From a virus: 38,384 nucleotides of DNA. The translations under genes were made by a program, and so were the position numbers. A model generated the notes under the pieces. That model made no database searches and was not told where the DNA came from. It saw nothing but the letters and a program-made list of their open reading frames with translations. Numbering within the stretch: position 1 is the first letter of the stretch; each line of letters opens with the position of its first letter. The stretch spans positions 5,604 through 43,987 of IMG/VR virus record IMGVR_UViG_3300000117_009450; one strand, given 5' to 3'. Positions 6,796-35,702 of the stretch are shown here, in pieces.

Positions 6796-8424
6796 ATGCC
6801 CCGTATATCGCTAATTCAGATCAGAAAAGGAACTACCGCTGAATGGAATAGTGCTAATCCTGTTTTAGGTAGTGGCGAACCAGGATATGATCTTGATCTT
6901 AATCATCTTAAATTGGGTGATGGTAATAATAATTGGAATAGTATCCAGCCCATAGGCTCTTCTTTACATCCAAATATTAATGCTTCTGATTCTAGTGACA
7001 ATAATTTAGCTAATCATTTTGTTAGAAATTTGTTGCTAGACGAAAATGGTCATGTTACAGGTATATACGTTACCAATTCTGAGCAAATAGAGCTTTCTAC
7101 AGATCCTTCTCCTCAACTAGGTGCTGATCTTGATACTAATGGCAATAATATATTGTTTGGAGATAATGAGCAGGCTATTTTTGGTGATGGTTCTGACCTA
7201 TTGATTTATCATGATGGAAGCAATAGTTTTATTGATGAAGAAGGAACTGGATCACTTAATATTAGAGGACCCGAGTTAAATCTAAAAAGTTCTAGCAATG
7301 AACTTTATTTCCAGGCAGTATCTGATGGTTCAGTATCTCTCTATTATGACGGTTCTAAGAAATTTGAAACAACAGCCACAGGGGTCTATGTTCTCAATAC
7401 CCTTACTTCTGCAACAGGTATACATGACACAATAGATCTTTCTTTAATGGATGAGTTATCTAGCCCTACACATCAAGAAGGTAGGCTGTTTTATGATAGT
7501 GAAAATCATGCTTTAGTTGTTTATAATGAAGAGTCTGAAGTTACACAACAATTGGGTCAAGAAGAGTATTTAAGAGTTAGAAACAATACTGGTGCTACTA
7601 TTACAAATGGCACTCCTGTTATTATTACGGGCTCTCATGGAAATGCTGCTCCAACTATAGCTCCTGCAAATGCTGCTAGTGATATTAATTCTCGTGTTGT
7701 AGGTATAGCCACACATGATATTGAAAATAATAGTTTTGGATATGTAACTACTTATGGTATTGTTAGACATATTGATACTTCTTCTTTCAGTGGTGGAGAT
7801 GAAATATTTTTATCCACTACCCCTGGAGAATTAACTGCGACATGTCCTGTTATACCTAATTATTGCGTACCTATTGGCTATGTTATCAGAAGTCATGCTG
7901 CTAATGGTTCTGTTTTAGTAGAATTAGGAAAACATAAATTAGGAGGAGGAGATTTAAAGTCTGAAGCAAATTTAAATTTACAGGGCATACCTTTTGTTAG
8001 CACTGTAGGTTCAGATAGGTCTGGAGGATTGTTAACAGACGCTAATTTAGTTTACAATAGTGGTGTTCAAGAGCTAAATCTGGGCACTGGAGGTATTAGA
8101 TTTAGTGATGGAACTACTCAAACTACATCTGCTGGTGGTGTAAATAAAGATTATGTGAGCGTTACTTCTCACTATACATTAACTACTGATAATGATGTAG
8201 TTTTTGTAAACAGTAGTGCGGCTTTGGTAAATGTGTATATTCCTACAGCTAGTGGGATTGGTGGTAAAGAAATTATAGTTAAGAAAACTGTTGGTTCTAA
8301 TAATGTGGTAATTAATACTATAGTTGGTACAGAAACAATTGATGGTAATTCAAGCTTTACAATAACAAATAATTATGAAAGTGTAACTTTAATATCAGAT
8401 AATACAAATTGGTTTATAATATAA
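6796..8424 (+). CDS. Tail/head fibre protein with Mtd-like N-terminus
   Basis: A 542-residue modular fibre. Residues 1-55 (MPRISLIQIRKGTTAEWNS, then GEPGYDLDLNHLKLGDG) match the N-terminal β-prism repeat found in Mtd-like and other phage receptor-binding proteins. Residues 130-205 carry the LLIYHDGSNSFI ... SLYYDGSKKFETTATGV repeat known from cyanophage structural proteins. A β-rich middle follows (about 225-385). Residues 453-542 form a C-terminal module (HYTLTTDNDVVFVN ... SDNTNWFII) shared with the next gene and the distal protein at 29919. It probably forms a trimeric adhesin fibre. The ribosome site AGAGG is well placed. Which virion part it attaches to is unknown; its place between capsid and connector genes allows a head fibre. 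Confidence 0.75.
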   Translation: MPRISLIQIRKGTTAEWNSANPVLGSGEPGYDLDLNHLKLGDGNNNWNSIQPIGSSLHPNINASDSSDNNLANHFVRNLLLDENGHVTGIYVTNSEQIELSTDPSPQLGADLDTNGNNILFGDNEQAIFGDGSDLLIYHDGSNSFIDEEGTGSLNIRGPELNLKSSSNELYFQAVSDGSVSLYYDGSKKFETTATGVYVLNTLTSATGIHDTIDLSLMDELSSPTHQEGRLFYDSENHALVVYNEESEVTQQLGQEEYLRVRNNTGATITNGTPVIITGSHGNAAPTIAPANAASDINSRVVGIATHDIENNSFGYVTTYGIVRHIDTSSFSGGDEIFLSTTPGELTATCPVIPNYCVPIGYVIRSHAANGSVLVELGKHKLGGGDLKSEANLNLQGIPFVSTVGSDRSGGLLTDANLVYNSGVQELNLGTGGIRFSDGTTQTTSAGGVNKDYVSVTSHYTLTTDNDVVFVNSSAALVNVYIPTASGIGGKEIIVKKTVGSNNVVINTIVGTETIDGNSSFTITNNYESVTLISDNTNWFII

Positions 8425-11931: not shown

Positions 11932-12858
11932 ATGGAAAACAAAGTAGCAATTTTGCTTTGGCTTTATCATACGGATATGGCCCAGGAATTTTATGATATA
12001 TTATATAATTTTAAAGATATATCAGATATACATTTAGGGCTTTGTTTAGAAAACGATAATCTAGAAGCACTAGAGATTTTCAATGATCTGCCTAAAAGCA
12101 TACTGTATCATCATAATGTTGGTGGAGACATACTTCCTTTCTTAAAACAATTACAAAATATAGATAATCAAATATTTATCAAACTACATTCTAAGAAAAG
12201 TGGTTGGGGCATTAACAATCAGGGCAACTGGAGACTTATGCTTTTGGACAGTCTACTAGACACACCTGATGAATTATTAAAAAATATAGACAGGATGCAA
12301 ACAAAGAATATAGGATATTTAGGACCTCCTAGTTTTATGTGCCATGATTTTGAACTTAAAAATAAAGAGAAGATTAAAGAACTAGAATATAAATTAAATA
12401 TACCAAAGGTAACCAAAAGAGTATTTTCTGGTGGCAACATGTTTATAGGCCAGACTTTATTATATAAAAATACATTAGATCACCACTATAATACTTTATA
12501 TGATCTTTTATCTAAAGAGGCAGGAAAAGTATCTGATCTTAAAAGTGGTACATACTGTCATGCTATGGAAAGAATACTTGGCTATATATCTAACAATAAA
12601 ACTTACTCATCGGGGAAGTGCTTTATAGACACTATCAAAATTAAAATATTATCCAAAAATACAGATCACAAATATTTACATTTTAGAACTTTGTCCAATA
12701 ACGACATTTATTGTGTTGAACAACCAAATATATATGGAAAGATCATAGAACAAAATAAGGATGATTTTATAGTAGAGTGGCAACATAAATTGTCAGAAAA
12801 GCAGAAATATCAAAAAATATCAAAAAATACTTATATTAATACTAAGCATATAGGTTAG
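11932..12858 (+). CDS. RgpF-like (rhamnan synthesis protein F family) glycosyltransferase
   Basis: A 308-residue protein. The motif series matches the RgpF/rhamnan synthesis F family, which adds or extends surface sugars: HHNVGGDILPFLKQL (near residue 60), IFIKLHSKKSGWG (80-92), WRLMLLDSLL (100-109), IGYLGPP (127-133) and GGNMFIG near 167, where the family has a G-x-MFW-type segment. No signal peptide or membrane segment is visible, so it would act in the host cytoplasm. It starts eight bases after the preceding small protein, with a weak purine-rich site, and ends against the connector gene. Very high A+T and many Lys, Asn and Ile codons suggest separate acquisition. A likely role is glycosylation of virion proteins or change of host surface sugars; sugar donor and acceptor are unknown. 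Confidence 0.75.
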   Translation: MENKVAILLWLYHTDMAQEFYDILYNFKDISDIHLGLCLENDNLEALEIFNDLPKSILYHHNVGGDILPFLKQLQNIDNQIFIKLHSKKSGWGINNQGNWRLMLLDSLLDTPDELLKNIDRMQTKNIGYLGPPSFMCHDFELKNKEKIKELEYKLNIPKVTKRVFSGGNMFIGQTLLYKNTLDHHYNTLYDLLSKEAGKVSDLKSGTYCHAMERILGYISNNKTYSSGKCFIDTIKIKILSKNTDHKYLHFRTLSNNDIYCVEQPNIYGKIIEQNKDDFIVEWQHKLSEKQKYQKISKNTYINTKHIG

Positions 12859-13454: not shown

Positions 13455-14666
13455 ATGGCAGTTACACATAATTTTACTATAGACCAAGGTTCAGATTTTG
13501 CTATTCAATTTATCTTCCAAGATGTGAATGGTAATAATGTTGATTTAACACAAGGTGTTGTTTCTTTTAGATTTCAAGGCAACGACTCAAGTACACCTCA
13601 GTCTTTTTTGAGCACAGATGCTGCTCCTCCGGGGTTGCCTAATAGATATGTAACATCTAATAATGCTGGGCAAATAGATATTCAATTTCCAGCAGAGTTG
13701 ACTAAGGACTTTACATTTATTACTGCTGTTTATGAATTAGATTTTCAGCCTGAACTTGCTGATCAAACTCAAGTGTCTAATACAATTATCTCTAGAGGTA
13801 CTATTGGACTAATACCAAAGTCATTTAATAGTTTTGTTAGTGGAGGATCGGGAGATTCTGAAGAGGGAGATGTAACAGACAACATCATTAGTGGTAATTC
13901 TACTGGTGGTGATCAGTGCGCCTCTGCTTGTCTAATATTAGATTCAGATTCTATTGTTTATCGTGCTAGTGGCATACCTATTTTAGACAATCAAGATAAC
14001 TATAGTGCAACAGAATTTATCGATAATTTAAGACCAATACAAAAAATAGAAGTTGGTATTAACGGCTTGAAACATAGTAGTCCCCAAGACCTAACCTTAT
14101 TACTTGATCCTCCAACTGGCAATACTGTTTTATTATCTAGTAATAGTAAAATTAGTAATTATGATGAAACCAATACTGCTAATAAATTTAATTTTGTTTT
14201 TTCAGACAGGGCTCCTGCTACCCAATTCATACAGGATGTTCCTCATAACGGCATGTGTCAAATACAAGACAAAACAAGTATTACAAAATACAGTAGTCAC
14301 ACACTAGAACCTTCTTTTAATCATTTATATGGCACTGCAAATACTGGTGTTTATAAGTTATATATTAATGATAATGATCCTATAGGTACTGGTATTATTG
14401 ATAACTGGGAACTTATTATTACTTATTCCGGTATTCCAATATCGGCTACTCCTACTCCAACAGCTACAGTAACCCCTACTGTAACACCAACAATTTCTCT
14501 AACGCCTTCTGTAACACCGACTAATACTATAACACCAACGCTAACCCCAACTCCAACGATTTCTGTAACTCCAACGATTTCTGTAACCCCAACACTTACA
14601 CCAACTTCTGGACTAGCTCCAACACCAACTCCTAATCCGACACCAACTACTACAGCTTGCCCATAA
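13455..14666 (+). CDS. Appendage protein: QGS module, P-domain, Thr/Pro-rich tail
   Basis: A 403-residue three-part protein. Residues 1-130 are the QGS-type β module shared with the protein at 6132. Residues 154-327 resemble the proprotein-convertase P-domain, a jelly-roll β sandwich: IQKIEVGINGLKHSSPQDLTL, then a Pro/Gly loop, FNFVFSDRAP, and GVYKLYINDNDPIGTG followed by IIDNWELIITYSG. Residues 328-403 are an almost pure Thr/Pro/Val/Ser tail (TPTISVTPT type). P-domains occur mostly next to secreted peptidases or as binding modules; no peptidase domain is present here, so binding is the likely role. The ribosome site is AAGGA six bases from the ATG. It interrupts the connector genes, so it may decorate the neck or head. 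Domain call by motif; location inferred. Confidence 0.7.
   Translation: MAVTHNFTIDQGSDFAIQFIFQDVNGNNVDLTQGVVSFRFQGNDSSTPQSFLSTDAAPPGLPNRYVTSNNAGQIDIQFPAELTKDFTFITAVYELDFQPELADQTQVSNTIISRGTIGLIPKSFNSFVSGGSGDSEEGDVTDNIISGNSTGGDQCASACLILDSDSIVYRASGIPILDNQDNYSATEFIDNLRPIQKIEVGINGLKHSSPQDLTLLLDPPTGNTVLLSSNSKISNYDETNTANKFNFVFSDRAPATQFIQDVPHNGMCQIQDKTSITKYSSHTLEPSFNHLYGTANTGVYKLYINDNDPIGTGIIDNWELIITYSGIPISATPTPTATVTPTVTPTISLTPSVTPTNTITPTLTPTPTISVTPTISVTPTLTPTSGLAPTPTPNPTPTTTACP
14440..14663 (+). repeat. Thr/Pro-rich low-complexity repeat
   Basis: Degenerate six- to eight-residue units of the TPTISVTPT type encode the C-terminal tail of the P-domain protein. Codons vary (ACT, ACA, ACC, ACG with CCA, CCT, CCC), so the repeat is kept at protein level rather than by recent DNA slippage. 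A very similar but longer tract lies at 37745-38384. Confidence 0.8.
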
Positions 14667-20714: not shown

Positions 20715-23700
20715 ATGGCTAATGCTTTTAACTTAACTGCTCAAATCAATATCAGAGGACCATCCAATGTTAATAAGGTTGTGTCTGGTATTCAGAAACA
20801 ATTAAATGGTCTTAATGCTAATGTTAATCTTGGTATTAATAGGAGTACAACCAAAACTCTTGCGGCCGCTAATAAACAATTACAAGCAATTAATGCTAAT
20901 TTAAATAAAGTTGCTGGTTCTGCTACTAGAGCAAATACTTCTATGGCTCAGTTTGCTAAAAGCGCGAACAGTTTGGGTGGCACAGGTAATGTAGCTAGTA
21001 AAATTAATAGTGCTAGTAAAGCAACACAACAGCTGGGTAAAAATGCTAAGATTAGTTTTAAAGATATTAAACTGGCTCGTACAGAAATAGAAGAGTTTGG
21101 TAGACAATCGGCTTTGGCTATTAGAAGATTTACTGCTTTTGCTAGTGTTACTAGTGTTATATATGGTGTTAACAATGCTATTAATAGAGCACTAGGAGAC
21201 TTTGTTAAGTTTGATAGACAATTAGTAAGAATTTCTCAGGTTAGTGGTACGGCAGTTAGTAACCTAAAAGGTTTACAGGGTACAATCGGAGATCTTGCGA
21301 CATCTATTGGTGTTTCCAGTTCTAGTCTTGCAGAAATTTCTGTTACTTTAACACAAGCTGGTTTTAGTGTTAGAGAAGTACAAAAAGCCTTGAGAGCTCT
21401 TGCTCTTACAGATGTTGCTCCTACATTTAATAATTTGAACCAAACAGTTGAAGGTAGTATTGCTTTACTCAGACAGTTTAGCATCGGTGCTGGTCAATTA
21501 GAGGCTAGTCTTGGTAGTATTAATGCTGTTGCTGCTAAGTTTGCTGTAGAATCTAGCGATATCATTGCTGCTATTCAGCGTGCCGGTGGTGTGTTTGCTG
21601 CTGCTAGTAGAGGTGTTAGTGAAGGAACAAATGCTTTAAATGAATTTATTGCGGTATTTACTGCTGTTAGGTCTACGACGCGTGAAGGTGCGGAAACTAT
21701 TGCTACTGGTTTAAGAACGATTTTCACTAGATTGCAAAGAGAAAGCACAATAGATGCTCTGAAAGAATTCGGAGTTAGTCTGCAAGATGCACAAGGTAAG
21801 TTTGTTGGAGCATACAAAGCTGTACAGCTATTAAGTGAAGGCTTAGGAGGCTTAGACCCTAGAGATATACGTTTTAGTAAAATTGTAGAAGAGTTGGGTG
21901 GATTTAGACAAATTGGTAAGGTTATTCCTCTTATTGGACAGTTCGCAACAGCGCAAAAGGCTTTGTCTGTAGCAAATCAAGGACAGGGTTCTTTAGCAGA
22001 AAGTAATGCTAAGGCTCAAGCAGCTTTGGCTATTCAATTTGCAAGAGTTAGAGAAGAATTTTTAAGACTTGTTAGAGATGTTGCTGGCACAGATAGCTTC
22101 AAGGGTCTTGTTACTCAAGCCCTAAATTTAGCTAGTGCTTTAATTAAAGTAGCAGATTCTGTTAAAGGTATTGTTCCTATTCTTGGCTTGCTTGCTGCTG
22201 CTCGTGGAGCTTCTGCTATAACACAATTTGGTAGAGGTTTTGGTGGTGGACTCAGAAGAACTCAAGGCTTTGCTAGTGGGGGTACGGTTCCTGGTAGTGG
22301 TAATACAGATAGTGTTCCAGCGATGCTTACTCCTGGTGAGTTTGTTCTTAGAAAAAGTTCTGTAAGAGCTATCGGTACTGAAAAACTACACAAGATGAAT
22401 AAATTTAGCGGAGGAAGTTTGGTTAAACAAACACAGTTTACAAGAACTGGAAAGTTTCTGTCTAACACTTATGGTTCGTTAAGAAAAAAAGTAGACCCAA
22501 AAGCAAAATACTCAGCTGATATCAACCCAATTCCGGTACCAACAGCAACTGTTTTACCTAGTATGAAAGCTAGAGCATCTAAGAAACCTGGTATGTATCA
22601 TTGGGAAAATTTCGAAAAAGCTGTTGCTTCAAAATATGGTTTACAAGCTGCTGGTGGCAGAAGTTTTTTAGATTATCCTGGGTCTTTAGGAGAGGCTAAG
22701 TTTTTGAAAAAGGGTGCTACTTATGCAAATGACAAAGAGACAGGATTTTTAAAGGGAAACAACAACCAAACAATGCTTGCTAAGTATGTAGGGCACATGC
22801 TTAATAAAGGACAATATGCTCCTGGAGAAGTTGATGTTTATTATCCTGAAAATATAAATGAGATTAGAAAAAATCTCCCAAAGCCAAAAAGAGAAGCAAC
22901 CGGCGGAAGTATACAAGATACAGTACCGGCAATGTTGACGCCCGGTGAATTTGTAATGAATAAGAAAAGCGCCAAAGCTGTTGGTTATGGTAATCTAAGA
23001 AAGATGAATACTAGACCACAAGGTTTTAATAAGGGCGGTGTTGTTGGTTTTAATACTGGTGGCTTAGCAGCTATGAAGGGTAGAGGAGGAACTATTGACA
23101 TTAGTTCATTTAACTCTCAATTAGCTGGCTTAGAAAACGCTTTTGCTAGTATGGGTGCTCCTGTAGATCAATTAACTAATGCTGTGATGAAAAATGGTAA
23201 AGTTAGCTATAATTCATATAGAGCGTTAATCAGACAATCCAAAGCCAATATCGATCTTGCAAGATCTAGCGCTAAAACTAGTGATGACTTGAAAAAAGTT
23301 GCAGCTATGGAAAAACAATTGATGGCAATTAGGAAAAAGGGTGCTGCTCAAGCAAGAGGCGGCGGAGGCGGAGGTGCTGCATTAGCTAAAATGTTTGATC
23401 CCCAAAGTATGTTTTATTTTACTGCTGCTCTTGGTAGCGCATCTGTTGGTTTAGAAAGTTTTGACACGGCAGTAACAACGGGCATATCAACAACAATCAA
23501 CTCATTATTGGCTATGGGATTAACTGTTTCAACTGCCGTTCAAACATTTAGTGCTTTATCGACCGCTCTTGCGGGTACAAGAATAGCTTCTATAGCTGCA
23601 AGTCTTGGACTTACTGGCGTTGGTGCTGTATTAGGTCCGATTACAATAACTATGGGTGTTCTTGCGGCTGCTGTTGCTGGCACTATTGCTATTTTTCAAG

Positions 23701-26700
23701 GACTCGATGCTGCAGCAAAAAAACGTTTAGAGCAAGAGCGCAAACAGGCTCAATCTGGTTTAGACACTGCCGCTACTAGAACAACAAAAGCTTTAGAAAA
23801 ACTATCAAAAGAAGCAAGTGCTGTCAATTTCCAAGAAGCTATTGGGGCTGCTGCAAGTCAAGCAGGAGCAAGTGACGCACTAGCAAGGACCACATTAACA
23901 GGAGTAAGTCAAGATAGACAAAACGTTTCTCTTGAAAATCCTTCAAGTTTTAAGAGATGGGCAAGAGACGCTGCTGCAAATCTTACTTTTGGTTACGTCG
24001 ACAGTCTACAAGACGCTACTGATAATAACAAAAACAGAGCACAAGAAGCAGCTAAAAAATTAGCAGATATATATGGCAAACAAGCCGCTGCGCAAATGAG
24101 TCTAGCAACAGCAAGATTTAATGCAGGATTTACTTTAGGTGATCTTTCAGGGGACGCAGCAAAAAGAAGACGAGGCGGCACTCTTACAGAAGCAGAAACA
24201 ACAAATGCAGATATATTTGATAGTTTAGTAGAAGCAAGACTTAAATCTGATGAAATATATATACAATCTCAAATAAAAGCAGCAGAATCAAATAGACAAT
24301 TAACTACTGCTGAAATTAACCAACACAGAGACAGAGTTAGAAGTCTTGTGGAATTAGATAATAGTGAAGCTAACCTAGCTTCTAAAATCGCAGAAAACGC
24401 TAGGGCTCAAGAAGCAGCTAGACAAATTGCATATCAATTATCTAAAAATTTCATATCATTAAATAATAAAATACAAGCATCTGCTAACATAATAGATGCA
24501 GAAAGTCAAGCTAGACAAAGTTCTATAGAATCTTTAGCTGCTATTGCTGACGGATCCTTGAAAATAGCAGAAGTTGCAGATCGAGCTAGTATTGCTCTTA
24601 ATAATTTAGCTGGAGCAACTCCACAAGAAAGACAACAAGCATTAACTGCAACAAGAAATAATTTAACTTCTGTTTTGGGACGAGATAGGGCTAATGAAAT
24701 TACTGCTTTGTCAGGTCTAGATGTAGACAGTTTACAATCAGGGGTTGAAGACGTAATTTCAAGAACACCAGTAAACAAGTTGTCTGGAGCAATTCAAGCG
24801 CAATTGGCTGGGGGCGTTGACAGACAATTAGGGCCTGGCGCTTCAGCAGACACAAGAAAACAGTTTAAGGCATTGTCAGAACAAACTGGTAAACAAATAG
24901 AAAACAGAATAAGCGCTCTTAATGCAGACGATCCAGATTATAATAGAAAAAGACAAGCTATTATTGATGAAGAAACAGACAAATTTAATGAAGCACTAGA
25001 GAAAACAACAGATGCAGCAAGAGAAACTGCTACCACTATTAATGATCAATTAAATAAAGCTTTAAATAATTTTGCATCAAATCTCAATCAAGCCGCTGCT
25101 CTTGAAGCAAAAGCTCAAGAACTTAGATATGCAGGAATTAAACAGCAAGAATCAAATAATAATAGAATAAGTCAAATTATGACAAGGGAATCTTCTGTTA
25201 CTCCATCTTCTATTGCTGCTAGAGGACGTAACGAAGCTATGGCTCTGGCTGGAACTACAGACCCAAATAGTATTAAAAACAATATTTTAGCAGGAACAGA
25301 TCGTATCGGACGATTAAGAGAAAGATTAGATGAATCTACAGACCAAGGAGAAAGAAAATTATTAATAGAAGCTATAGATAATGAAACAAGAAGTATCAAC
25401 AATAATAGAAAAGCTTTAGATGTTTTATCAGAAACTACTCAAGAAGTTATAGATTCATTATTAGAAGAAGCAGAAACAAGAAATGCCCTACAAGATGCCA
25501 ATAAACAATTTGCTGATACCTTACTAACATCTGGTCCAGCAGAACTCAAGGCTCTTGATGAGTCTCTTGTTAGGGCTAATCAAAGACTTAATGGATTTAT
25601 TCCACAAGCTGGTGCTAGCGAAAGAAAGAAATTCTTTGAACTGCTCAAATCAACAGGTAGTGTGCGTCAGGCTCAACAGGGCGTAGCTGCTGATATGAGA
25701 AAAACAGATCTTCAAACTTTAGATCAAACAAGAGCTAGTAGAGAACTTCTTTTGTCTAACCAAATTTTTCAGCAGTTAACAGCACAAGGTGTTGATAAAC
25801 AGACAGCTAGTGTACAAGCCGGTCAACAAGCTAGACAAAGAATTAGAGAAGATGACGCTAACATTTATGCACAAATGGGTGGAGAAGCTGGTCTTGGCGC
25901 ACTAGGTCGATCAATAGTTGGCGCTGCTACAGCTACTATGTTTGATCCTCGTAATGATCCTGTTATGGGAGCGCTTGCAGACAGCTTAAATAATCAAGTA
26001 GGTCAACAAGCAGAGTTAAATACTACTTTAGTAAATTTAAACCAAACCCTTGCTGATCTGACTAGGGAAATGGGAGAAGATGCATATCGAAAAAATGTTG
26101 AGTCAATAAATCCAGCAAGAAGAAGTATGGGTGGTTTAATTTATGCTTCTGACGGACAGTATATTAACTTTAAACCTAAAGGTACAGATACAGTACCTGC
26201 AATGCTAACTCCTGGTGAATTTGTTGTTAATCGTCAGGCCACACAAAAGAACATGGGGTTATTACAGTCTATTAATGGTGGTCAGGTTAATACTTATTCT
26301 GGTGGTGGAAAGGTTTCTTATCTTAGAGGTGGTGGTTTTGCTCAAAGAGATACAAATAAAGATGGTGTGATTACTATAGGAGCAGAAGATGCTAGTGGAT
26401 TAAGAGACCCTAATGGTGATGGAAGAATTACATTTGCAGAATATATGGTTGGAGAAGCCAGAACAGATCCTAAGATGAGGGCCGCTGCTGAAAGTATGAA
26501 TAAAGCTTTGAATAAACCTATGAGAAATGCAACAGATTTCTTAAGGGCTGAAGGCGTAGCAGATATGGTTGATACTTTTGGTCCTTCGGCAGAAAGTCTT
26601 GCAACATATCAAAAAATAGAAGATGAAGAGTTCCAGAGATCACTGGATGAATATGATCGAATATACGGAGTAGATGGTAAGGGCGGTATTAAGGATACTG

Positions 26701-29700
26701 ACGAATTTTTCAAAGCAAGAAATAAATTTGAAAAAGATTTAGGTAGTAATAAATTTGCTTTTGATTTCTTCAGAAAAAGAAGAGATAGAAACAAACAAGC
26801 TGGACGACCAAATATGGGATTAAAAGGTAATTTTACTGCCGCTAATCTTTATAAAGGTTTTAGAGATGAATATGATAGAGAATTACAGGCCACATTAGCA
26901 AATAATAAAGAAATGACTCCAGAGGAAGCAAGACAAGCAACTCTGGATAAGATTTATGGAGAGAAAGGAATCTTTGAATCGTTTGGGGGTACAAGAGAAG
27001 GTTTTGAAAGACAATTAGATAGAAGAGATCTGGCTCGAAGTTCTGTTGGTAGTAGTTCAAATTTCAGGGCCGCTAATAAATCAGGAATAGAAGCTGCAAA
27101 ATATGCAAAGAGAAGAGGAGAAGATCCTCAAGAAGCGTATTTTGAAGCTAGAAATCAAGCATTAAGAGAAAATATCAATCGGAAAAAAACCAATATATTA
27201 AGAAATTTTGAAGCAGGTAGGGGTGACGATCTTTCTTTGGAAGAACAGCGCATGCTAGGAATTAGTAAAGAAGAGTATAGTGCTTCAAACGCTAATAGAA
27301 AAGCCCAAATAAATAAAGAATTGATGGATCCTACTACAGAAAGAGGCAAGTCGGAGGCAGGAGTTACCGCGCGATCAGAAAAGCGTGAAGCGGATATAAA
27401 GGCCAGAGTCGATAAAAGGATGAAAGAATATCAAGACGGCATGGATGAGATCATGGTACGATCTAAGATAGAAGCAGAAAAGGAATTGGAAGAACAACGT
27501 ATAGCAGACTTAGAAAGAAAATATGGTCCAGAAACTGTTGCTAGGATCAGGAAGGAGCAGCAAGAGAAAAATGACAAATTTGATGAAGAGTATGGCACAG
27601 ATTTCGGATCAGCTACTAGTGACCAGATGAAAGCAAGAATTCTTAGAGAAGAACAAGCGGCTACTATGGCCGAGCGCAATAAAAGAACGAAGGATATAGA
27701 AGCAAAAGCTGTAAAAGCTGTTGAGGAAAGAAAAGAAAGAATAAAAATACAGGAAGAAGTATTAGCAAGAGAGGCTGAAGCAGAACAAGCTCAAAAAGAT
27801 CGTTTAGATTTTCTTATTTCAGAAACTAACCAACGTATTAAAAATAAGCTTAATGAAATAGATGTTGCGAAGTTGCCATATGAAACAGCTATGGCTTATC
27901 TAAATCCATTTGATGCAACAGCAGCAGACGATACAGAAATTTCATCTAAAAAAGCAGAACTTAATAATATATTTAAAGCCAGATATGCATTAATGCATCT
28001 TAAAAATCCTGAAAGATATGATGCTCCAAGGAATATAGCTGATGTATATGATTTCTTAAACAAAGAAGGTCTTAATCCCGATACAGGAATAGCTTCAGCA
28101 GGTAGATCATTTACTACTACTGGAGAATTTGGCAGAATAATGGAGAAAGATGCTCGAGCTCAAAAAAATATAGATCTTGGTTATGATATGGGCATGGTAC
28201 CAGTAAGAGCTTTGTCTGCGGTTGCGCTTGGTCCATTATCCTCATTCTTATTGGATACATCAGCTACTTATGCTGCTTCTGGTAAAGATACAGAAGGAGC
28301 AGCGGTAGATGCTGGTATATCAGGAGCTATTGAGCTTGGTCTGAATGCTATTTCTCCGACTATAGCTAAAGTTTTTAAACAAATTCCATTTGAAGCCTTA
28401 ACAAAAAATCGTTCTCTAGGTGTAGTAGACTTATTTCAAGCAGTATCTGCAAGATCGAAAGCTGCAGCTTCTGAAACAGCCTCCAGAAATAAAGCAGCTA
28501 ATAGAGCAATAGTTAAGACTTTGAAAAAAGGTCTGGGCCGTGAACCAACAGCTAATGAAGTAATGGCTTTTAGTGAAGCATTTAATGTTGATGGAAATGT
28601 TGACGGGGCGGTAGCTTATGCTAGAGACTTTGCAGATATGCCTGGTACTGATGTATTTAAAATAGATATTAGAAAATTAGTGACAGGCACTGCAGATGAA
28701 GGGGATGTAAGAGCTTTCTTGCTGCCTGATAGTAACTTTAAGAAACCACCAACAGTAAGAGCACAAAGATTGTTGGACGAAAAGAGTTTGCTTGAAGGAT
28801 CTGAAAATTTAGGTCCTATGACTAGAGAGCAAAAAGCTGGTTTAGAAAATTTTTACAGAAGAGATGCTGAAATTGAATCCTTGCTTCCTAAAGAAGGTCT
28901 AAAATTTGATTCTGTAGTTCCCGATAGCGATCTCTATCAAATCTCACCTCCACCAACAAATAGGACGCCAACAAGTTATAAACAAGCACCGCCACCAGTT
29001 GGAGCTCCTATTGATATACCTGGAGTTAATAGTATCGATGACCTAGTAGATCCTAGGATGCCAACAAGTTTTAAACAAGCACCACCAGCAAACACAATAC
29101 CATCAGCTAATAAACCTTTACAGTCTAGTTTAACCCCAGCGGATAGAGGTGCCCAAGCGAAACAAATTATCAATAATGTCCCTGCAGCTTCTAGAACAGA
29201 AGCAGAAACTGCTCTCGTTAATCAAGCTATTACAGATCCAGACATACTAAAGACTATGCGCAAAGGAGGAATGGTATATGCTAGTAACGGTATGTTAATT
29301 CCATATCGACCACAAGGAACAGATACAGTTCCAGCTATGCTAACTCCTGGAGAATTTGTGGTCAATAGAAATGCTACTAGTCAATATTTACCAGTTTTAA
29401 GAGCTATCAATAGCGGATACAATACTCACGGTCAAATGGTTAATCATCTGGCTCGTGGAGGAGTAGCAGGTTCACCTCAATATCTCCAAAATGGTGGATT
29501 AGCAGCTGGGGGTGTTAATAATGGTGTATCAGTTAATAGTCAAATTGGAGGAATAGAAGAATTAAAAGCCGTTGTAAATCAGCTAAATGAAGCTATATCT
29601 GGTGGTACAGAAAATATGACAAATGTCGCTACACAAATCTCAAATACGTCTCAATCTCTAGCTTCTGGAGCTCAATCTTTGAATGAAGCTGGTACAAATA

Positions 29701-29906
29701 TACCAACTCAGATTACACAACAGCAAAGACTCACCGTGGATCATGCTGGCATACCACAGAATATAGGAGCAGAATTTGGGAAATCAGCAGACTATGCTAT
29801 TGGCCAAGCAGACGCAAGATCAGCACAACAATTAAATGATCTTAATACTGCAAATGAAGGCGCATTTGGTTTACCATCTCCTAATAACAACTCTACTATA
29901 TCTTAA
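20715..29906 (+). CDS. Tape measure protein (3063 residues)
   Basis: A giant tail tape measure, which sets tail length and passes through the tube during DNA ejection. Residues 1-150 are Asn/Ala-rich helices. Residues 160-440 form the TP901-type core (FDRQLVRISQVSGTAVSNLKG, FAVESSDIIAAIQRAGGVF, TIATGLRTIFTRLQRES). About 470-505 and 898-1000 are hydrophobic and may span membrane on ejection. Four TDxVPAMLTPGEFV segments recur near residues 531, 734, 1826 and 2875. Residues 625-715 hold an insert with D653 and E660-A-K662. Residues 1879-1909 hold two EF-hand-type loops. Long coiled coils (1020-1780 and 2050-2350) and a Pro-rich stretch with duplicated PTSYKQAPP/PTSFKQAPP motifs (about 2750-2795) follow. 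Start: ATG after AGGA at ten bases. No lysozyme or peptidase motif was recognised. Confidence 0.92.
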   Translation: MANAFNLTAQINIRGPSNVNKVVSGIQKQLNGLNANVNLGINRSTTKTLAAANKQLQAINANLNKVAGSATRANTSMAQFAKSANSLGGTGNVASKINSASKATQQLGKNAKISFKDIKLARTEIEEFGRQSALAIRRFTAFASVTSVIYGVNNAINRALGDFVKFDRQLVRISQVSGTAVSNLKGLQGTIGDLATSIGVSSSSLAEISVTLTQAGFSVREVQKALRALALTDVAPTFNNLNQTVEGSIALLRQFSIGAGQLEASLGSINAVAAKFAVESSDIIAAIQRAGGVFAAASRGVSEGTNALNEFIAVFTAVRSTTREGAETIATGLRTIFTRLQRESTIDALKEFGVSLQDAQGKFVGAYKAVQLLSEGLGGLDPRDIRFSKIVEELGGFRQIGKVIPLIGQFATAQKALSVANQGQGSLAESNAKAQAALAIQFARVREEFLRLVRDVAGTDSFKGLVTQALNLASALIKVADSVKGIVPILGLLAAARGASAITQFGRGFGGGLRRTQGFASGGTVPGSGNTDSVPAMLTPGEFVLRKSSVRAIGTEKLHKMNKFSGGSLVKQTQFTRTGKFLSNTYGSLRKKVDPKAKYSADINPIPVPTATVLPSMKARASKKPGMYHWENFEKAVASKYGLQAAGGRSFLDYPGSLGEAKFLKKGATYANDKETGFLKGNNNQTMLAKYVGHMLNKGQYAPGEVDVYYPENINEIRKNLPKPKREATGGSIQDTVPAMLTPGEFVMNKKSAKAVGYGNLRKMNTRPQGFNKGGVVGFNTGGLAAMKGRGGTIDISSFNSQLAGLENAFASMGAPVDQLTNAVMKNGKVSYNSYRALIRQSKANIDLARSSAKTSDDLKKVAAMEKQLMAIRKKGAAQARGGGGGGAALAKMFDPQSMFYFTAALGSASVGLESFDTAVTTGISTTINSLLAMGLTVSTAVQTFSALSTALAGTRIASIAASLGLTGVGAVLGPITITMGVLAAAVAGTIAIFQGLDAAAKKRLEQERKQAQSGLDTAATRTTKALEKLSKEASAVNFQEAIGAAASQAGASDALARTTLTGVSQDRQNVSLENPSSFKRWARDAAANLTFGYVDSLQDATDNNKNRAQEAAKKLADIYGKQAAAQMSLATARFNAGFTLGDLSGDAAKRRRGGTLTEAETTNADIFDSLVEARLKSDEIYIQSQIKAAESNRQLTTAEINQHRDRVRSLVELDNSEANLASKIAENARAQEAARQIAYQLSKNFISLNNKIQASANIIDAESQARQSSIESLAAIADGSLKIAEVADRASIALNNLAGATPQERQQALTATRNNLTSVLGRDRANEITALSGLDVDSLQSGVEDVISRTPVNKLSGAIQAQLAGGVDRQLGPGASADTRKQFKALSEQTGKQIENRISALNADDPDYNRKRQAIIDEETDKFNEALEKTTDAARETATTINDQLNKALNNFASNLNQAAALEAKAQELRYAGIKQQESNNNRISQIMTRESSVTPSSIAARGRNEAMALAGTTDPNSIKNNILAGTDRIGRLRERLDESTDQGERKLLIEAIDNETRSINNNRKALDVLSETTQEVIDSLLEEAETRNALQDANKQFADTLLTSGPAELKALDESLVRANQRLNGFIPQAGASERKKFFELLKSTGSVRQAQQGVAADMRKTDLQTLDQTRASRELLLSNQIFQQLTAQGVDKQTASVQAGQQARQRIREDDANIYAQMGGEAGLGALGRSIVGAATATMFDPRNDPVMGALADSLNNQVGQQAELNTTLVNLNQTLADLTREMGEDAYRKNVESINPARRSMGGLIYASDGQYINFKPKGTDTVPAMLTPGEFVVNRQATQKNMGLLQSINGGQVNTYSGGGKVSYLRGGGFAQRDTNKDGVITIGAEDASGLRDPNGDGRITFAEYMVGEARTDPKMRAAAESMNKALNKPMRNATDFLRAEGVADMVDTFGPSAESLATYQKIEDEEFQRSLDEYDRIYGVDGKGGIKDTDEFFKARNKFEKDLGSNKFAFDFFRKRRDRNKQAGRPNMGLKGNFTAANLYKGFRDEYDRELQATLANNKEMTPEEARQATLDKIYGEKGIFESFGGTREGFERQLDRRDLARSSVGSSSNFRAANKSGIEAAKYAKRRGEDPQEAYFEARNQALRENINRKKTNILRNFEAGRGDDLSLEEQRMLGISKEEYSASNANRKAQINKELMDPTTERGKSEAGVTARSEKREADIKARVDKRMKEYQDGMDEIMVRSKIEAEKELEEQRIADLERKYGPETVARIRKEQQEKNDKFDEEYGTDFGSATSDQMKARILREEQAATMAERNKRTKDIEAKAVKAVEERKERIKIQEEVLAREAEAEQAQKDRLDFLISETNQRIKNKLNEIDVAKLPYETAMAYLNPFDATAADDTEISSKKAELNNIFKARYALMHLKNPERYDAPRNIADVYDFLNKEGLNPDTGIASAGRSFTTTGEFGRIMEKDARAQKNIDLGYDMGMVPVRALSAVALGPLSSFLLDTSATYAASGKDTEGAAVDAGISGAIELGLNAISPTIAKVFKQIPFEALTKNRSLGVVDLFQAVSARSKAAASETASRNKAANRAIVKTLKKGLGREPTANEVMAFSEAFNVDGNVDGAVAYARDFADMPGTDVFKIDIRKLVTGTADEGDVRAFLLPDSNFKKPPTVRAQRLLDEKSLLEGSENLGPMTREQKAGLENFYRRDAEIESLLPKEGLKFDSVVPDSDLYQISPPPTNRTPTSYKQAPPPVGAPIDIPGVNSIDDLVDPRMPTSFKQAPPANTIPSANKPLQSSLTPADRGAQAKQIINNVPAASRTEAETALVNQAITDPDILKTMRKGGMVYASNGMLIPYRPQGTDTVPAMLTPGEFVVNRNATSQYLPVLRAINSGYNTHGQMVNHLARGGVAGSPQYLQNGGLAAGGVNNGVSVNSQIGGIEELKAVVNQLNEAISGGTENMTNVATQISNTSQSLASGAQSLNEAGTNIPTQITQQQRLTVDHAGIPQNIGAEFGKSADYAIGQADARSAQQLNDLNTANEGAFGLPSPNNNSTIS

Positions 29907-29918
29907 GGCCAAAAAGAC

Positions 29919-32900
29919 ATGAATAATGTACATATTTTTGAAAATGTAGGATTAAAATGTAAGACAGAAAATAATAAAATTATTCTATTAAAAACCTTGG
30001 TCGGATATAATAATTTCCAAGACTCACAAGTAGGCTCTTCTGTACCATATTTAATTAGGAATGTTGCCCAAAAGAAATATGAAGTAGGTGTTGGTGAATT
30101 AGGTAAAGATAAGGATTTTTATATTGTTAGAGAAAAGGTAATATCCTCTTCTAATAATGGTGATCCTGTAGAACTTATAGGGGTTGATAGTGAATTCTAT
30201 ATCTTTGCTAATGAATATAATTTTAATACAGCCTTTAATAATGTCATACTTAAAGACGACAGTTTTGATGTAGATAATGTTAGAGCTATATATATAGTAG
30301 ATACTTCCAAAGGTTCTATTTCTGCCACACTACCACCCGCCCAAGCCAATCAATCATTAGTAGTAGATTTTAAAACAGTTAATAATGCTAGTGGTCAATT
30401 AGTAATTAAATGTTCTGAAAATTATACCGTTCATAGTTTGCCCGGTAAAGATAAACATATCACATTAGTCTGTACTGGTTCTAAATGGGTTCCACTACAA
30501 GATAACCAAAAACAACAAACTACTTTTAGTAAATTCTCAAATCCATCTTTTTCTGCACAAGCTGATCCTGCTGGAGCTACTGGCTCATTACAGTATAAAG
30601 TTGACGCTACAACCTTTGGCGACACCAAAGCATTTTTTGGTCCAAATGACACAATACTATTAGGTGGCACAGGAATAGTTGATAATGCTCATATTATATT
30701 GCCTACCACTGGCGTTGGCGCTAATAATAATGTGATATTTAATAACCAACATGCTAGTGGTGATTTTACTGTTCATGGTAGTGCTAGTGGTATAGGCTTA
30801 TCGTTTAGTCATGATGGAGGTCTAGGACTTAATGTTCCTACAGGACATTTTGCTCCCTCCAGTGGAGATGTAATATTTTATGGTAGCGGCGATTTTAATG
30901 ATGCTAGAAAAAATCTATTCTTTTCTTATGATGGTAGACTAGGTATTAATATTCCTTCTGGTAGTAGACCACAAACCGTTGCTCATTTCATAAATGTTTC
31001 TGATTGTTCAGAGACTTTAAGACTAGAAAATAAAGCAGTTTGTCATCCAGCAAATCTTACATTATTACATAACCCACCCCTCTCCACTATTCCTGCTAAT
31101 AGCACCATAGCTACCATCGCTATGTCCTCTAAAAATAGTGCTAGTAATGAAGTAGATTATGTACAATTATTGGGTAGGGTTTTAGATTTTACTAATGGTC
31201 AAACTAAAGGTGAATTTGGTTTAATTGTAAACAGTGGTAATGCCGCTATTCAAACCATAAAAACTAACGCTAGTCAAACATCACTAAATCATGGGACTTC
31301 TAGATTATCTGTCTCCGACAGTTCTGCTGGTATTGCTAGTCCAGAAATTACATTTTCAGGCACAAGTATAAATTTTGTTGATTTAGCTTCAGGCCAATCT
31401 GGAGTTGTTAATTTTGGCACAATTAATACTAATCTTATCACACCCAATACATTAAAATTAGACACATTAAGCACAAACAGTTTATTAACAGTTAATTCTG
31501 ATAAAGAAGTTGTAGCAGCAAGCACAGGAAATGCAATAGCTATTGCAAATGCTCCTTCTGGTAGAATACTATCAACAGAAGCTAATGGTATTGTCACTAC
31601 AGACATTAGTCTTGATGATTATTTCAGAACTAATAGAGATGTTATTTATAATAGTTTTCCAAAGAGACAAGCAGAAGGTTGTCTACAACAAATCATATTT
31701 ATTGAACCAAATGTATCAGAGAGAGAATTTTCTATCGGTGATCAGATAGAAATAACTGACGCTGATGGTACTGTGACATATAATTTTGTTACTGGTATAT
31801 CTTCTAATAATGGCATAATTACTACTTTAAATTGTGCTGATCTAATTAGTTCATCTACTATTCCTGGCATATCTGTTCAGTCAATTACTAAAGGCTTTAC
31901 TCTTACATTAGAAAAGTATGTAGATCCAGAGATTACTGCATTAAACGATTCTACATTTATAGTTTTAAGTACACAACCTGGACAAAATACTATATTTAAT
32001 GGAGATAAAGCCAACCTGGGATTTACTGTTTATGCTGACTCTTTAGTTCCAGCATTAGACATTAGACCTTCGGGAGCCAATCCCGCTAGAGTATTTACTG
32101 GTCAGTATTATAGTTATTCTACACAAGCAAATAGTGCTCCTTTAACAATTTTAGTAGACGCTTCTGGTAGAGGAACCAGTGAGTCAGCATACAATACCGC
32201 TAATTTTAATAATGCTGCTATTCCCAGATGGTCTGGTTTTGTAACTGATGTAGGTGTTAATGGTCGACCTAGTGCTTTTGGCACCTTTGATCAGCAAGGT
32301 AATGTTGCAGAATGGATAGCTGTAAATACTCAACAGCATAATACAAGTGAGTCTAGGTATGTAGCAGGTGGTAATTTTGCTAGTACTTTAGAACAAATGA
32401 AGGCTGTTGAAGCTTTAAGTTCTATGTCAGGAGCATCTGGTGTTGGTATTAGACTTGCTAGTGTGTTTAATAAACAAGATAGTGATTATATTAGTGGTGT
32501 GCTAGGCTTAAACTTTGCAGATATTACCAATCCATTAAATATATCATCTGCCACAGGATTACAACTATATAATAGTAGTACAGATACATTTTCTGATTTA
32601 ACCTTTTCTGGTCTTGGAACAGTTACAAGACAGTACAGAATGGGTATAAATGAAATTACTAACAGGCAATATGTAGAATTCTTAAATGCTATAGGTTCTG
32701 GAAATGCAGGCGATGTACTAAACTTATTTGATTCCAGAATGGAAACAAGTGTTGCTGGAGGTATTGAGAAAACTAGTTCTGTAATATGTGCCCCAAGAAA
32801 CATGTTACATACGTATAGTGTGAAAACAGACTATGATAATAAACCAGTTAATTTTGTTAATTATTTAAGTGCTGTTAGATTTGCTAATTGGATTAATAAT

Positions 32901-35702
32901 GGCGCTCCAACAGGCTTAACCGTTAGTCCTGATGTTATAACAGAATCTGGAGCATATAATATTGCATTACAGGGTGGTGGTATTTATGCAATTAGTAAGG
33001 ATGCAAATGCAGAATATTATCTTCCAGATATAAATGATTGGTATAAAGCAGCATACTTCCAACCAGGGACAGCAGTTGCTCAATCTGGAACATCAATCCT
33101 TCTTAATGCTAATGATGTAGGAACGCTTTCTACAAAAAATGATATCCAAGCAGCTGTTACTATTGGTGGTAATGTAGTAGTATCTAGTGGAGACTTAAAT
33201 GTTTCAGGTGTACTAGCTGCAAGAGATTTGGAAATTCTTAACGATTCTGGAGAAAGTGTTATACAAACTGCTAATGATACAGAAATAAATATTCTTGGTG
33301 TAGAACAAGGACAAAATTCTTTAAGACTTGTCAATACAGAAAATGGTAAATTACAAATTGGTCCTAATCCTAGCTTAACACTTAGTGGTGCTGGTGCTTT
33401 AGATGGTAGTTATTTTACAGGTTTTTCAAAAGCAAAAACAACTATAGCATCTACCGGTGAAGTTAAAATTTTATCACAACTTCCTGTTATATTTAGTGGT
33501 ATTAGCACACAAAGTCTTACTGTAAATACTTTATCTTTCCAAGATGAAGAAGGTAATATAAGAGACTTTTTCAATGGTCCTGATGGCGGGTTTGTTTACA
33601 AAACAGGAGCATCTAGCTCTAATGCTTCTGATCAATTAAAATTTGACGCAGGGGAAATAGTTTATACTGGAGTAGAGATTAGTGGGCTGTGTCCTTTATA
33701 TACAGATAACCTTAATAGAGTAAGATCATATAAGCTTTTGAAGTATGAAACTGACTATGTTGAACTAAGCGGAATGTTTAATCCGATAGAATTACAGGTT
33801 GGTCCTGACAATACGACTTTATCTGGATCTTTCTTGGTTCATCAGGGCGAAGGTCCTATGAAGTACGTGATTAACGACTTCTTATCTGCAGAGGGTTTAA
33901 CCTATCAAAGATACGCAAAAAGACTAGTTCGTGTAGATGTGTTTAGTAAAAAAGTAAGTTTTGTAGAGCCTCCTCTAGAACCTAAAATACCTGGTATTGC
34001 TGAGGGTTTGCCTCAACTAGATGATTTGGATTCTGAATATTCATTTGGTGATACTATAGCTATTATGCATACAGGCAATAATGAAATTGAATATGTAAAA
34101 TTGGCTGCACAAGCTAGAGGTCCATTTGATGGTCCTGATTTTCTTTATGTAGGAGATACTCCGTTATTTGGTGAAGGCGCTGGAGTAGAAGGTGAGAATA
34201 CTATTAGTTCATTCTTTTGTCCAGGTGTTAAAGGTAATGAGCTAGATGGTGGTGACGATGTACCAGAGTTTACTGGTATTATGTATTCAATAACCAGGTC
34301 TTCTACTCTTAAAAATGGTTTGGGTTACGGATTATTTCCTCAAGACCCTCCTGCTATTAGTGGTTTTAATTGCGGCAATGACTCTTATGAGCCTATTGAG
34401 AATAATGAGAGTGCTGAGTTTACATTTAGACCAAGTTCTCAAAACGTTATTAGTACTAGGCCAACGACTAGTACTATGTTTAATAATGTTGGAGAAAACA
34501 TTGACTTCGCAATATATGGACGTACCAAATTCCAATACAATAGATATAATCCGAATATACATGATGCAAGTGATGAAAAGGGTGGTCGTCCTTCTGGTTT
34601 AATTCCAAGTTTTATGGTTGATGCCAATATAGGAAATGCTGCTAGTGGGGAACTTCCTTCGGGAGTTTTCTTTATAGATTGGGCAGATGCAGAAAAAACT
34701 ATTCCAACAGGATTTAATTTAGATCAAAGAGGTAAAGTTCTTGTTAATACAGAAACTCCTTTTGTTATGAGTTCATTAAGCAAGGCTATTTCTGTTGAAC
34801 CTAGTGGATTTCCTACTTTGGATCTTGTTGCTGATTTGACAGTAAATGGTTATACATATTCTAGAGGATTAATAACTGATCACATTTATCTATCTGGTAT
34901 AGATCCTAATACTTATATTCCTGGCGCTATATTGACAACAGATGTTACTGGTAGAGTCATTTCTCTACAGCCAGAGCTTCCTCCTAGTGTTCCTGGTCCG
35001 CCTACTTTAATTAGCGGTTCTGCTGGTAATACTAGTGTTGATTTAGATTGGTTCGCTCCAGTAGAAAACGGTGGCAAGCCAATATTAAATTACATAGTAG
35101 AATACAGCACCAATAATGGGGTAACATGGACTGCTCCTATTGATATTATAAATCCTAATACTGGTAAAAATATTACAGGATTAACTAATGGTCTAAATTA
35201 TATCTTTAGAGTTAGGGCGGTAAATGAAATTGGACAAGGACAATGGTCAGAACCTAGTGCCCAATTTACTCCTAGTTCTAATTTTCCAGGGGTTGTTAGA
35301 GAGCTTAATTTGAGCAGAAGAGACGTTACTGATCCTGTTACTGGTGATGTAGTATCAAATACTATAGAGGCAACGTGGGCTGTTCCTTTAGAAGCTGGTG
35401 CTAGTCCTATCGCACAATATATAATTAGATATAAACCATTTGATGGTTTGTCTTGGATTACCAAAGAGCCAATTACCGCAACATCATCTAGTTCATATAC
35501 TTTTGATTTAACAGGATTGCTTTCTGGTCCTACATATTTGGTTAAGGTTACAGCACAAAATAATTATGGAGAAGGAGAACCTAGTATTGAGCAGTCAGTT
35601 GGCACTGATCCTCCTCCTACAGAGCCAGAACCACCACCAAACCCTAATGATTTTGGAACCATAGAATTTTCAGGATCTTGTTCTACTCAAATAACAACTT
35701 AA
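29919..35702 (+). CDS. Large distal tail/receptor-binding protein with permuted FGE-like domain and two FnIII domains
   Basis: A 1927-residue modular protein 12 bases after the tape measure. Residues 1-120 are an unrecognised β-rich start. Residues 125-197 repeat the end module of the fibre proteins at 6796 and 8444 (TLVCTGSKWVPLQ). Residues 230-720 are β-rich fibre-like. Residues 727-1050 carry both halves of an FGE-sulfatase/C-type-lectin-like domain in swapped order. Residues 1060-1660 are β-rich with LTVNTLSFQDEEG-type fibre phrases. Two fibronectin type III domains lie at about 1687-1787 and 1790-1897 (PGPPTLISGSAGNTSVDLDW, GLTNGLNYIFRVRAVNEIG). The end is Pro-rich with one Cys. No catalytic Cys occurs in the FGE-like C-half, so binding, not catalysis, is likely. 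Probably the distal tail or central fibre. Confidence 0.75.
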   Translation: MNNVHIFENVGLKCKTENNKIILLKTLVGYNNFQDSQVGSSVPYLIRNVAQKKYEVGVGELGKDKDFYIVREKVISSSNNGDPVELIGVDSEFYIFANEYNFNTAFNNVILKDDSFDVDNVRAIYIVDTSKGSISATLPPAQANQSLVVDFKTVNNASGQLVIKCSENYTVHSLPGKDKHITLVCTGSKWVPLQDNQKQQTTFSKFSNPSFSAQADPAGATGSLQYKVDATTFGDTKAFFGPNDTILLGGTGIVDNAHIILPTTGVGANNNVIFNNQHASGDFTVHGSASGIGLSFSHDGGLGLNVPTGHFAPSSGDVIFYGSGDFNDARKNLFFSYDGRLGINIPSGSRPQTVAHFINVSDCSETLRLENKAVCHPANLTLLHNPPLSTIPANSTIATIAMSSKNSASNEVDYVQLLGRVLDFTNGQTKGEFGLIVNSGNAAIQTIKTNASQTSLNHGTSRLSVSDSSAGIASPEITFSGTSINFVDLASGQSGVVNFGTINTNLITPNTLKLDTLSTNSLLTVNSDKEVVAASTGNAIAIANAPSGRILSTEANGIVTTDISLDDYFRTNRDVIYNSFPKRQAEGCLQQIIFIEPNVSEREFSIGDQIEITDADGTVTYNFVTGISSNNGIITTLNCADLISSSTIPGISVQSITKGFTLTLEKYVDPEITALNDSTFIVLSTQPGQNTIFNGDKANLGFTVYADSLVPALDIRPSGANPARVFTGQYYSYSTQANSAPLTILVDASGRGTSESAYNTANFNNAAIPRWSGFVTDVGVNGRPSAFGTFDQQGNVAEWIAVNTQQHNTSESRYVAGGNFASTLEQMKAVEALSSMSGASGVGIRLASVFNKQDSDYISGVLGLNFADITNPLNISSATGLQLYNSSTDTFSDLTFSGLGTVTRQYRMGINEITNRQYVEFLNAIGSGNAGDVLNLFDSRMETSVAGGIEKTSSVICAPRNMLHTYSVKTDYDNKPVNFVNYLSAVRFANWINNGAPTGLTVSPDVITESGAYNIALQGGGIYAISKDANAEYYLPDINDWYKAAYFQPGTAVAQSGTSILLNANDVGTLSTKNDIQAAVTIGGNVVVSSGDLNVSGVLAARDLEILNDSGESVIQTANDTEINILGVEQGQNSLRLVNTENGKLQIGPNPSLTLSGAGALDGSYFTGFSKAKTTIASTGEVKILSQLPVIFSGISTQSLTVNTLSFQDEEGNIRDFFNGPDGGFVYKTGASSSNASDQLKFDAGEIVYTGVEISGLCPLYTDNLNRVRSYKLLKYETDYVELSGMFNPIELQVGPDNTTLSGSFLVHQGEGPMKYVINDFLSAEGLTYQRYAKRLVRVDVFSKKVSFVEPPLEPKIPGIAEGLPQLDDLDSEYSFGDTIAIMHTGNNEIEYVKLAAQARGPFDGPDFLYVGDTPLFGEGAGVEGENTISSFFCPGVKGNELDGGDDVPEFTGIMYSITRSSTLKNGLGYGLFPQDPPAISGFNCGNDSYEPIENNESAEFTFRPSSQNVISTRPTTSTMFNNVGENIDFAIYGRTKFQYNRYNPNIHDASDEKGGRPSGLIPSFMVDANIGNAASGELPSGVFFIDWADAEKTIPTGFNLDQRGKVLVNTETPFVMSSLSKAISVEPSGFPTLDLVADLTVNGYTYSRGLITDHIYLSGIDPNTYIPGAILTTDVTGRVISLQPELPPSVPGPPTLISGSAGNTSVDLDWFAPVENGGKPILNYIVEYSTNNGVTWTAPIDIINPNTGKNITGLTNGLNYIFRVRAVNEIGQGQWSEPSAQFTPSSNFPGVVRELNLSRRDVTDPVTGDVVSNTIEATWAVPLEAGASPIAQYIIRYKPFDGLSWITKEPITATSSSSYTFDLTGLLSGPTYLVKVTAQNNYGEGEPSIEQSVGTDPPPTEPEPPPNPNDFGTIEFSGSCSTQITT
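32101..33068 (+). other. Circularly permuted FGE-sulfatase/C-type-lectin-like domain (protein residues 727-1050)
   Basis: First comes the part that ends ordinary family members: YYSYSTQANSAP, SAFGTFDQQGNVAEW, YVAGGNF and GVGIRLAS. A linker of about 55 residues follows. Then comes the part that normally begins them: YRMGINEITNRQYVEFLNA, NKPVNFVNYLSAVRFANWIN and YYLPDINDWYKAAYFQPG. Neither half has its missing partner in the usual order nearby. The join falls between WYKAAYFQP and YYSYSTQ, which are neighbours in ordinary members. Confidence 0.7.

Follow-up and report, generated by a model that had tools for sequence, protein, structure and literature searches.

The FGE-type fold, named after the formylglycine-generating enzyme, is a general ligand-binding fold whose natural ends lie on adjacent antiparallel strands (PMC6328139). 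TvpA, Mtd and TaqVP are FGE-type C-type-lectin-fold variable proteins of diversity-generating retroelements (DGRs), and Mtd is the Bordetella phage protein that sets host tropism (PMC5006420, PMC6328139). A topological variant within the C-type-lectin-like superfamily is the segment-swapped NC1 domain of collagen IV (PMC3779223), the nearest case to what follows; its segments swap between subdomains, with no circular permutation. Our searches of the open-licence literature turned up no circularly permuted domain of the FGE or C-type-lectin fold. Here, we describe a 38,384-nucleotide stretch (the window) of the metagenomic virus record IMGVR_UViG_3300000117_009450, which spans 43,987 bases, and a tail protein encoded in it directly after the tape-measure open reading frame (ORF). 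We are highly confident that this protein contains one autonomous FGE-type (C-type-lectin-fold) domain in circularly permuted order. The features that define it, in window coordinates, are as follows.

29919–35702, plus strand: tail-protein ORF bearing the permuted domain, 1927 aa; the family is conserved over residues 1 to ~1120.
32097–33068, plus strand: predicted circularly permuted FGE-type domain, residues 727–1050; PF03781 in swapped order, AlphaFold model, 38 contigs with the same breakpoint.
32097–32462, plus strand: canonical C-terminal half, leading in the chain, with YYSYSTQAN, GNVAEW, GGNF and GIRLAS; PF03781 profile positions 153–254.
32463–32594, plus strand: junction that links the canonical C and N ends, including the usual N-terminal strand region LNFADITNPLNISSATG.
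32595–33068, plus strand: canonical N-terminal half, following in the chain, with YRMGINEITNRQY, VRFANW and YYLPDINDWYKAAYF; PF03781 profile positions 33–124.

A first-pass annotation, made from the sequence alone, had listed six motifs and placed the set that ends an ordinary domain ahead of the set that begins it. All six are present in that order in the tail-protein ORF, with FGTFDQQGNVAEW at residues 787–799, GGNF at 817–820 and GVGIRLAS at 841–848, followed by MGINEITNRQYVEFLNA at 908–924, AVRFANWINNG at 985–995 and YYLPDINDWYKAAYF at 1033–1047. Across the whole virus record, the FGE-sulfatase family PF03781 (SUMF1/FGS domain) matches at two places only, both within this ORF and in swapped order: profile positions 153–254 at 32205–32459 (E 1.8e-5) lie ahead of positions 33–124 at 32619–33059 (E 4.0e-9), reversing the canonical motif order of the family. 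The protein as a whole matches with an E value of 7.6e-11 and 42.6 bits, exceeding the curated cut-off of 23.3, and a profile search of the record found no normal-order PF03781 copy.

When the two halves are rejoined in N-to-C order, they produce a single PF03781 match covering 33–254 of the 255 profile positions (59.4 bits), whereas the native order reaches 49.1 bits in two stretches in the same test. The rejoined domain also aligns with a normal-order bacterial homologue, L194, at 42% identity over 252 residues (score 402), compared with a score of 274 over 135 residues for the native order (best of 200 shuffles, 82). A scan of circular cuts at every fifth residue placed the best cuts against L194 exactly in the GIRLAS-to-LGTV junction, where the old C end meets the old N end. 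The new break falls between WYKAAYF and YYSYSTQAN, elements that are adjacent in normal members, which bears out the argument of the annotation for a true circular permutation. Both halves are thus homologous and swapped, the old ends are joined, and the new ends sit in the loop after the WYKAAY helix; the swapped profile matches and the higher score on rejoining support a permuted single domain. The joiner of about 55 residues proposed earlier is correct as a distance, with ~55–60 residues between the flanking motifs, but much of it is ordinary N-terminal strand region and the linker proper is shorter.

Permuted members resemble PF03781 in the sequence motifs of both halves, and all 64 aligned members match the profile; they differ in their swapped halves and in having no catalytic cysteine pair. 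Two kinds of breakpoint occur among them. In type A, the majority, the domain starts at NxANFNxxADW and ends after YxxYATQSDxxPT, while in type B, which includes the window, it starts at about YYSYSTQAN and ends at WYKAAYF; both breaks are located after the WYKAAY helix. The solved sequence nearest to a profile of the permuted family is CarF (PDB 5aoh, called spore coat protein CotH in the chain list; E 2.8e-13). CarF itself is in normal order, and its two matching segments hit the permuted profile in reverse order. The profile also matches solved SUMF2, FGE and TvpA (2y3c, E 1.5e-7), and the printed alignments to CarF, SUMF2 and an FGE likewise show the segments in reversed order. The closest sequence relatives are PEP-CTERM-type FGE-domain proteins from Planctomycetota, Verrucomicrobiota and others, which are up to ~40% identical to the window domain in canonical order. 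These are all of normal order, single or in tandem, and many of the normal-order copies end in PEP-CTERM-type signals.

AlphaFold, run on a 64-row alignment, predicts the window domain as a confident single unit (pLDDT 86.9, pTM 0.87), and the normal-order control homologue reaches pLDDT 92.6 and pTM 0.92. Comparison of the secondary structure of these two separate models shows agreement in 84% of aligned states. Two separately folding halves, the outcome that the annotation had set against its own claim, are therefore not what the prediction returned.

A scan with the N-terminal 700 residues of the tail-protein family recovered 48 loci. The permuted domain is present in most orthologues, but four of them (L297, L300, L304 and L311) have no FGE domain, although their N-terminal region is complete and a long ORF lies upstream. 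In L300, the left flank aligns over residues 618–690 and the right flank over residues 683–742 (taken from L319; score 76, shuffles at most 56), so the flanks are contiguous where carriers hold the domain and ~330 aa are cleanly absent. These flanks were compared by pairwise alignments, which replaced a multi-orthologue alignment around the insert that was misleading after the insert. In a tree of the N-terminal region, the domain-less clade lies inside the carriers with support of 99–100, which implies that the permuted unit was probably lost whole in this clade. Given the clean empty site and this implied loss, the permuted domain behaves as one module, a removable insert in a conserved tail protein.

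In L306 (IMGVR_UViG_3300012000_000001), the type B gene is split in a frameshift-like manner: the C-half region is truncated in a frame of 840 aa, and a frame of 406 aa carries the remainder. L326, L330, L331 and L333 are shorter relatives that share only the first ~430 residues and then have different ends, some with Thr/Pro repeats.

On balance, the permuted domain probably serves on the tail as a non-enzymatic module for ligand binding or adhesion, which is its likeliest role. Among phages, the C-type-lectin and FGE folds are classic scaffolds for ligand binding, the permutant is common in uncultured phages, and a specific tail protein beside the tape measure can now be named as a candidate for host binding. 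The main rival to ligand binding is a structural role, in which the domain would be a conserved part of the tail tip that serves trimer stabilisation or baseplate contact and binds neither ligand nor receptor, which we regard as a substantial minority possibility. Between the window and its sister, dN/dS is 0.13 in the domain, close to the 0.114 of the conserved N-terminal 570 aa and below the 0.24–0.28 of the flanking regions; both this constraint and the presence of the domain in most orthologues would suit a structural part. Against this, the domain-less orthologues retain the rest of the protein.

A second alternative concerns the unit itself: the halves could have arisen in separate events and each find its missing partner in another chain or a neighbouring domain, through a domain swap or partial duplicates, so that no closed domain forms. 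Multi-copy type A arrangements in other phage proteins and the segment swapping of the collagen IV NC1 domains (PMC3779223) provide some precedent. However, the two halves together cover the PF03781 profile once, the monomer model is confident as one unit, the empty-site orthologues lack it as one piece, and type A copies also hold one full complement, split at another point. Separate half domains are therefore improbable.

The annotation had further suggested, tentatively, a receptor-binding head, pointing to the use of the fold for ligand binding in Mtd and TvpA-type proteins of other phages; the domain is at most a candidate for that part. TvpA, Mtd and TaqVP are of normal order and diversified by reverse transcriptase, whereas the window domain is conserved. 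The match of the family profile to TvpA speaks for a DGR target of this type, but no reverse transcriptase (PF00078) was found in 22 related records, including the 52-kb contig of the nearest relative (a search that covered records other than the one holding the window, and the transcriptase rather than template repeats), and a comparison of the two nearest relatives shows conservation of the domain instead of hypervariability. Given the strong purifying selection and the lack of a reverse transcriptase in these 22 records, the permuted domain is not an Mtd- or TvpA-like hypervariable head, and a DGR target is very unlikely.

As the window derives from a metagenomic record, a chimeric contig could in principle have joined the halves of a normal domain wrongly, and an assembly error at 32400–32650 had been named as a danger to the permutation. 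This reading is already refuted, with next to no probability left to it, since many datasets contain homologues that share the order. An independent contig, IMGVR_UViG_3300020442_002375, has the same gene and order, with the domain 92% identical and the whole protein 89%, so the order is not an assembly error. A query with a four-member alignment found ~40 virus contigs collinear with the permuted domain over nearly its full length, most at 33–47% identity. Overall, 82 virus contigs carry permuted domains, and these contigs come from 66 datasets (38 contigs with type B, 59 with type A and 15 with both); such counts are not unbiased frequencies since the loci were fetched by motif-based patterns (for bacteria, with a phage query).

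A working formylglycine-generating enzyme or related sulfoxide synthase on the virion likewise has next to no probability: PF03781 matches above its cut-off, but the protein is a tail protein, the window has no cysteine between GGNF and GIRLAS, none of 22 type B copies has two, and the cysteine pair that an FGE active site holds between RGGS and GFR is missing, so that FGE chemistry is not expected, as the annotation had foreseen from the cysteine-free C-half.

The family was opened with a [DE]WYKAAY DNA pattern in virus contigs and then followed with separate profiles for each half. The virus loci hold 194 permuted and 28 normal-order units (some loci overlap), and the bacterial loci hold 84 normal-order units plus 21 more inside normal tandem arrays, with no true permuted unit among the bacterial units examined (84 + 21). 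L126, the only bacterial locus flagged as permuted, proved to encode tandem normal-order PEP-CTERM proteins. Most normal-order units on virus contigs are probably bacterial genes, because a PEP-CTERM-type signal closes 20 of 24 non-redundant ones (19 recognised by regular expression and 1 by eye). The presence of the same rearrangement in at least 82 virus contigs, and in none of the bacterial relatives examined, marks the permuted FGE-type domain as a genuine, heritable form of a known domain.

In several type A proteins, linkers rich in Thr and Pro surround the domains, and L245 (IMGVR_UViG_3300009180_000021) carries at least four permuted domains in one open frame, with N-halves near aa 477, 1342, 2093 and 2448. 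L104 (IMGVR_UViG_3300043438_003422, 6.2 kb), which is classed as viral, contains five tandem PEP-CTERM FGE-domain genes and is probably a bacterial sequence.

Ordinary searches largely miss these domains. A tblastn search with the window domain and a type A domain gave no match among 50,697 phage records at lenient limits, and three matches of the L206 type B domain to the same records (E 0.07–0.7) were judged noise. A single-sequence scan of virus contigs returned only the near-identical sister contig, and a first scan of genome contigs found nothing. In 586 genomes from the phyla of L137 (Planctomycetota) and L158 (Cyanobacteriota), only partial, normal-order-type matches appeared at strict limits, under which weaker permuted copies could be missed. 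NCBIfam gave noise only and PHROGs nothing convincing for the permuted domain. The lack of a match among the phage records, together with that of a significant structural match in PDB or BFVD, exposes a blind spot of annotation for the permuted domain.

A few copies (L039, L050 and L067) combine a type B break with a short linker of the type A kind, and the tree places L050 among type A, so the break seems to have shifted more than once. By comparison with the published topology (PMC6328139), the two breaks would map to its alpha2-beta2 'insert 2' region. In an unrooted tree of 88 canonicalised domains over 229 columns, normal and permuted order are separated by one change with moderate support (81), and a starred clade of 15 type B rows (support 97) includes the window. 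The window junction at 32463–32594 is conserved among type B members and was compared with type A and bacterial tandem-array junctions. In the bacterial arrays, the C-to-N junction is 16–23 aa in 11 of 21 cases and longer in the rest; the type A permuted junction has a median of 20 and a similar sequence style (GFRLAS...VxVGDxxNxxDxxGxGxV). This agreement in size range and style fits a route in which a normal domain was duplicated in tandem and the outer halves were then lost, the likeliest origin suggested by the sequences. In the resulting domain, the old C-terminal strand (GIRLAS) would continue through the linker into the old N-terminal strand, and the new chain ends would lie in the loop after the WYKAAYF helix. 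Closing the natural ends should be easy, as they lie on adjacent antiparallel strands.

In one protein (L262, 27–5402, on the contig of L072 and L076), a permuted domain of type A, with its N-half at aa 1050, precedes a domain of normal order, whose N-half is at aa 1237 and which groups with the bacterial domains in the tree.

Taken as a whole, the family offers a well-documented case of natural permutation and module loss: it has two or more breakpoints, its bacterial relatives are of normal order, tandem arrays are plausible intermediates, and one orthologue shows the empty site. We consider it reasonably probable that the permuted FGE-type domains form a virus-restricted family, largely of single origin, which uncultured phages use in their tail and structural proteins as modules that can be exchanged or lost; on this view, permutation shifts the attachment points to the loop side and presents a different face, and order-dependent annotation misses the family. 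Several observations weigh against parts of the main reading of a permuted single domain with a ligand-binding role. The support for the split of normal and permuted order is only moderate, and the right flank of the domain in the window has diverged too far for an alignment to the empty site; the boundary rests on L319, with L308 weak. The strong purifying selection on the domain is unlike that of a fast-evolving receptor-binding surface. Foldseek placed the normal-order control on CarF (8.8e-11), its nearest fold, TvpA (2.2e-9) and FGE (4.9e-9), each at probability 1.00, but found nothing significant in PDB and BFVD for the permuted model, whose best relevant match was CarF (E 0.3, 106 columns). 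The comparison with FGE and TvpA proposed in the annotation thus succeeded for the normal-order homologue and left the permuted model unplaced; the simplest reading is that sequential, order-dependent Foldseek fails on a permuted chain. The FGE-type fold of the permuted domain is strongly indicated by the confident model and its 84% secondary-structure agreement with that homologue.

The remaining features of the tail-protein setting are listed below.

20715–29906, plus strand: tape-measure protein, 3063 aa, immediately upstream of the tail protein; PF10145, E 1.7e-21.
29919–32018, plus strand: conserved N-terminal 700 aa of the tail protein, common to orthologues with and without the permuted domain (alignment and scan).
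34998–35261, plus strand: fibronectin type III (FN3), first of two stretches; PF00041, E 5.9e-23, best at 1694–1781.

The phage tail setting assigned in the annotation agrees with this arrangement. The distance from the end of the tape-measure ORF to the type B gene is −17 to 57 nt in every type B locus with upstream sequence, the outlier L099 not being counted as type B, and PF10145 is present in 20 of 23 records searched. In PHROGs, the first FN3 region of the 1927-aa protein matches a minor tail protein. The tape-measure open frame of G010 (the contig of L219) extends to 7577 aa, against ~2961–6457 aa for the others in the group. Elsewhere in the window, a putative tail-fibre ORF at 6796–8421 has an N-terminus that matches PF18454 Mtd_N, the N-terminal domain of the major tropism determinant (E 3e-13). 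Upstream of the tape measure, an ORF at 11932–12855 matches the RgpF rhamnan synthesis protein (PF05045, E 7.9e-13), and another at 13455–14663 matches the proprotein-convertase P-domain (PF01483, E 1.2e-7).
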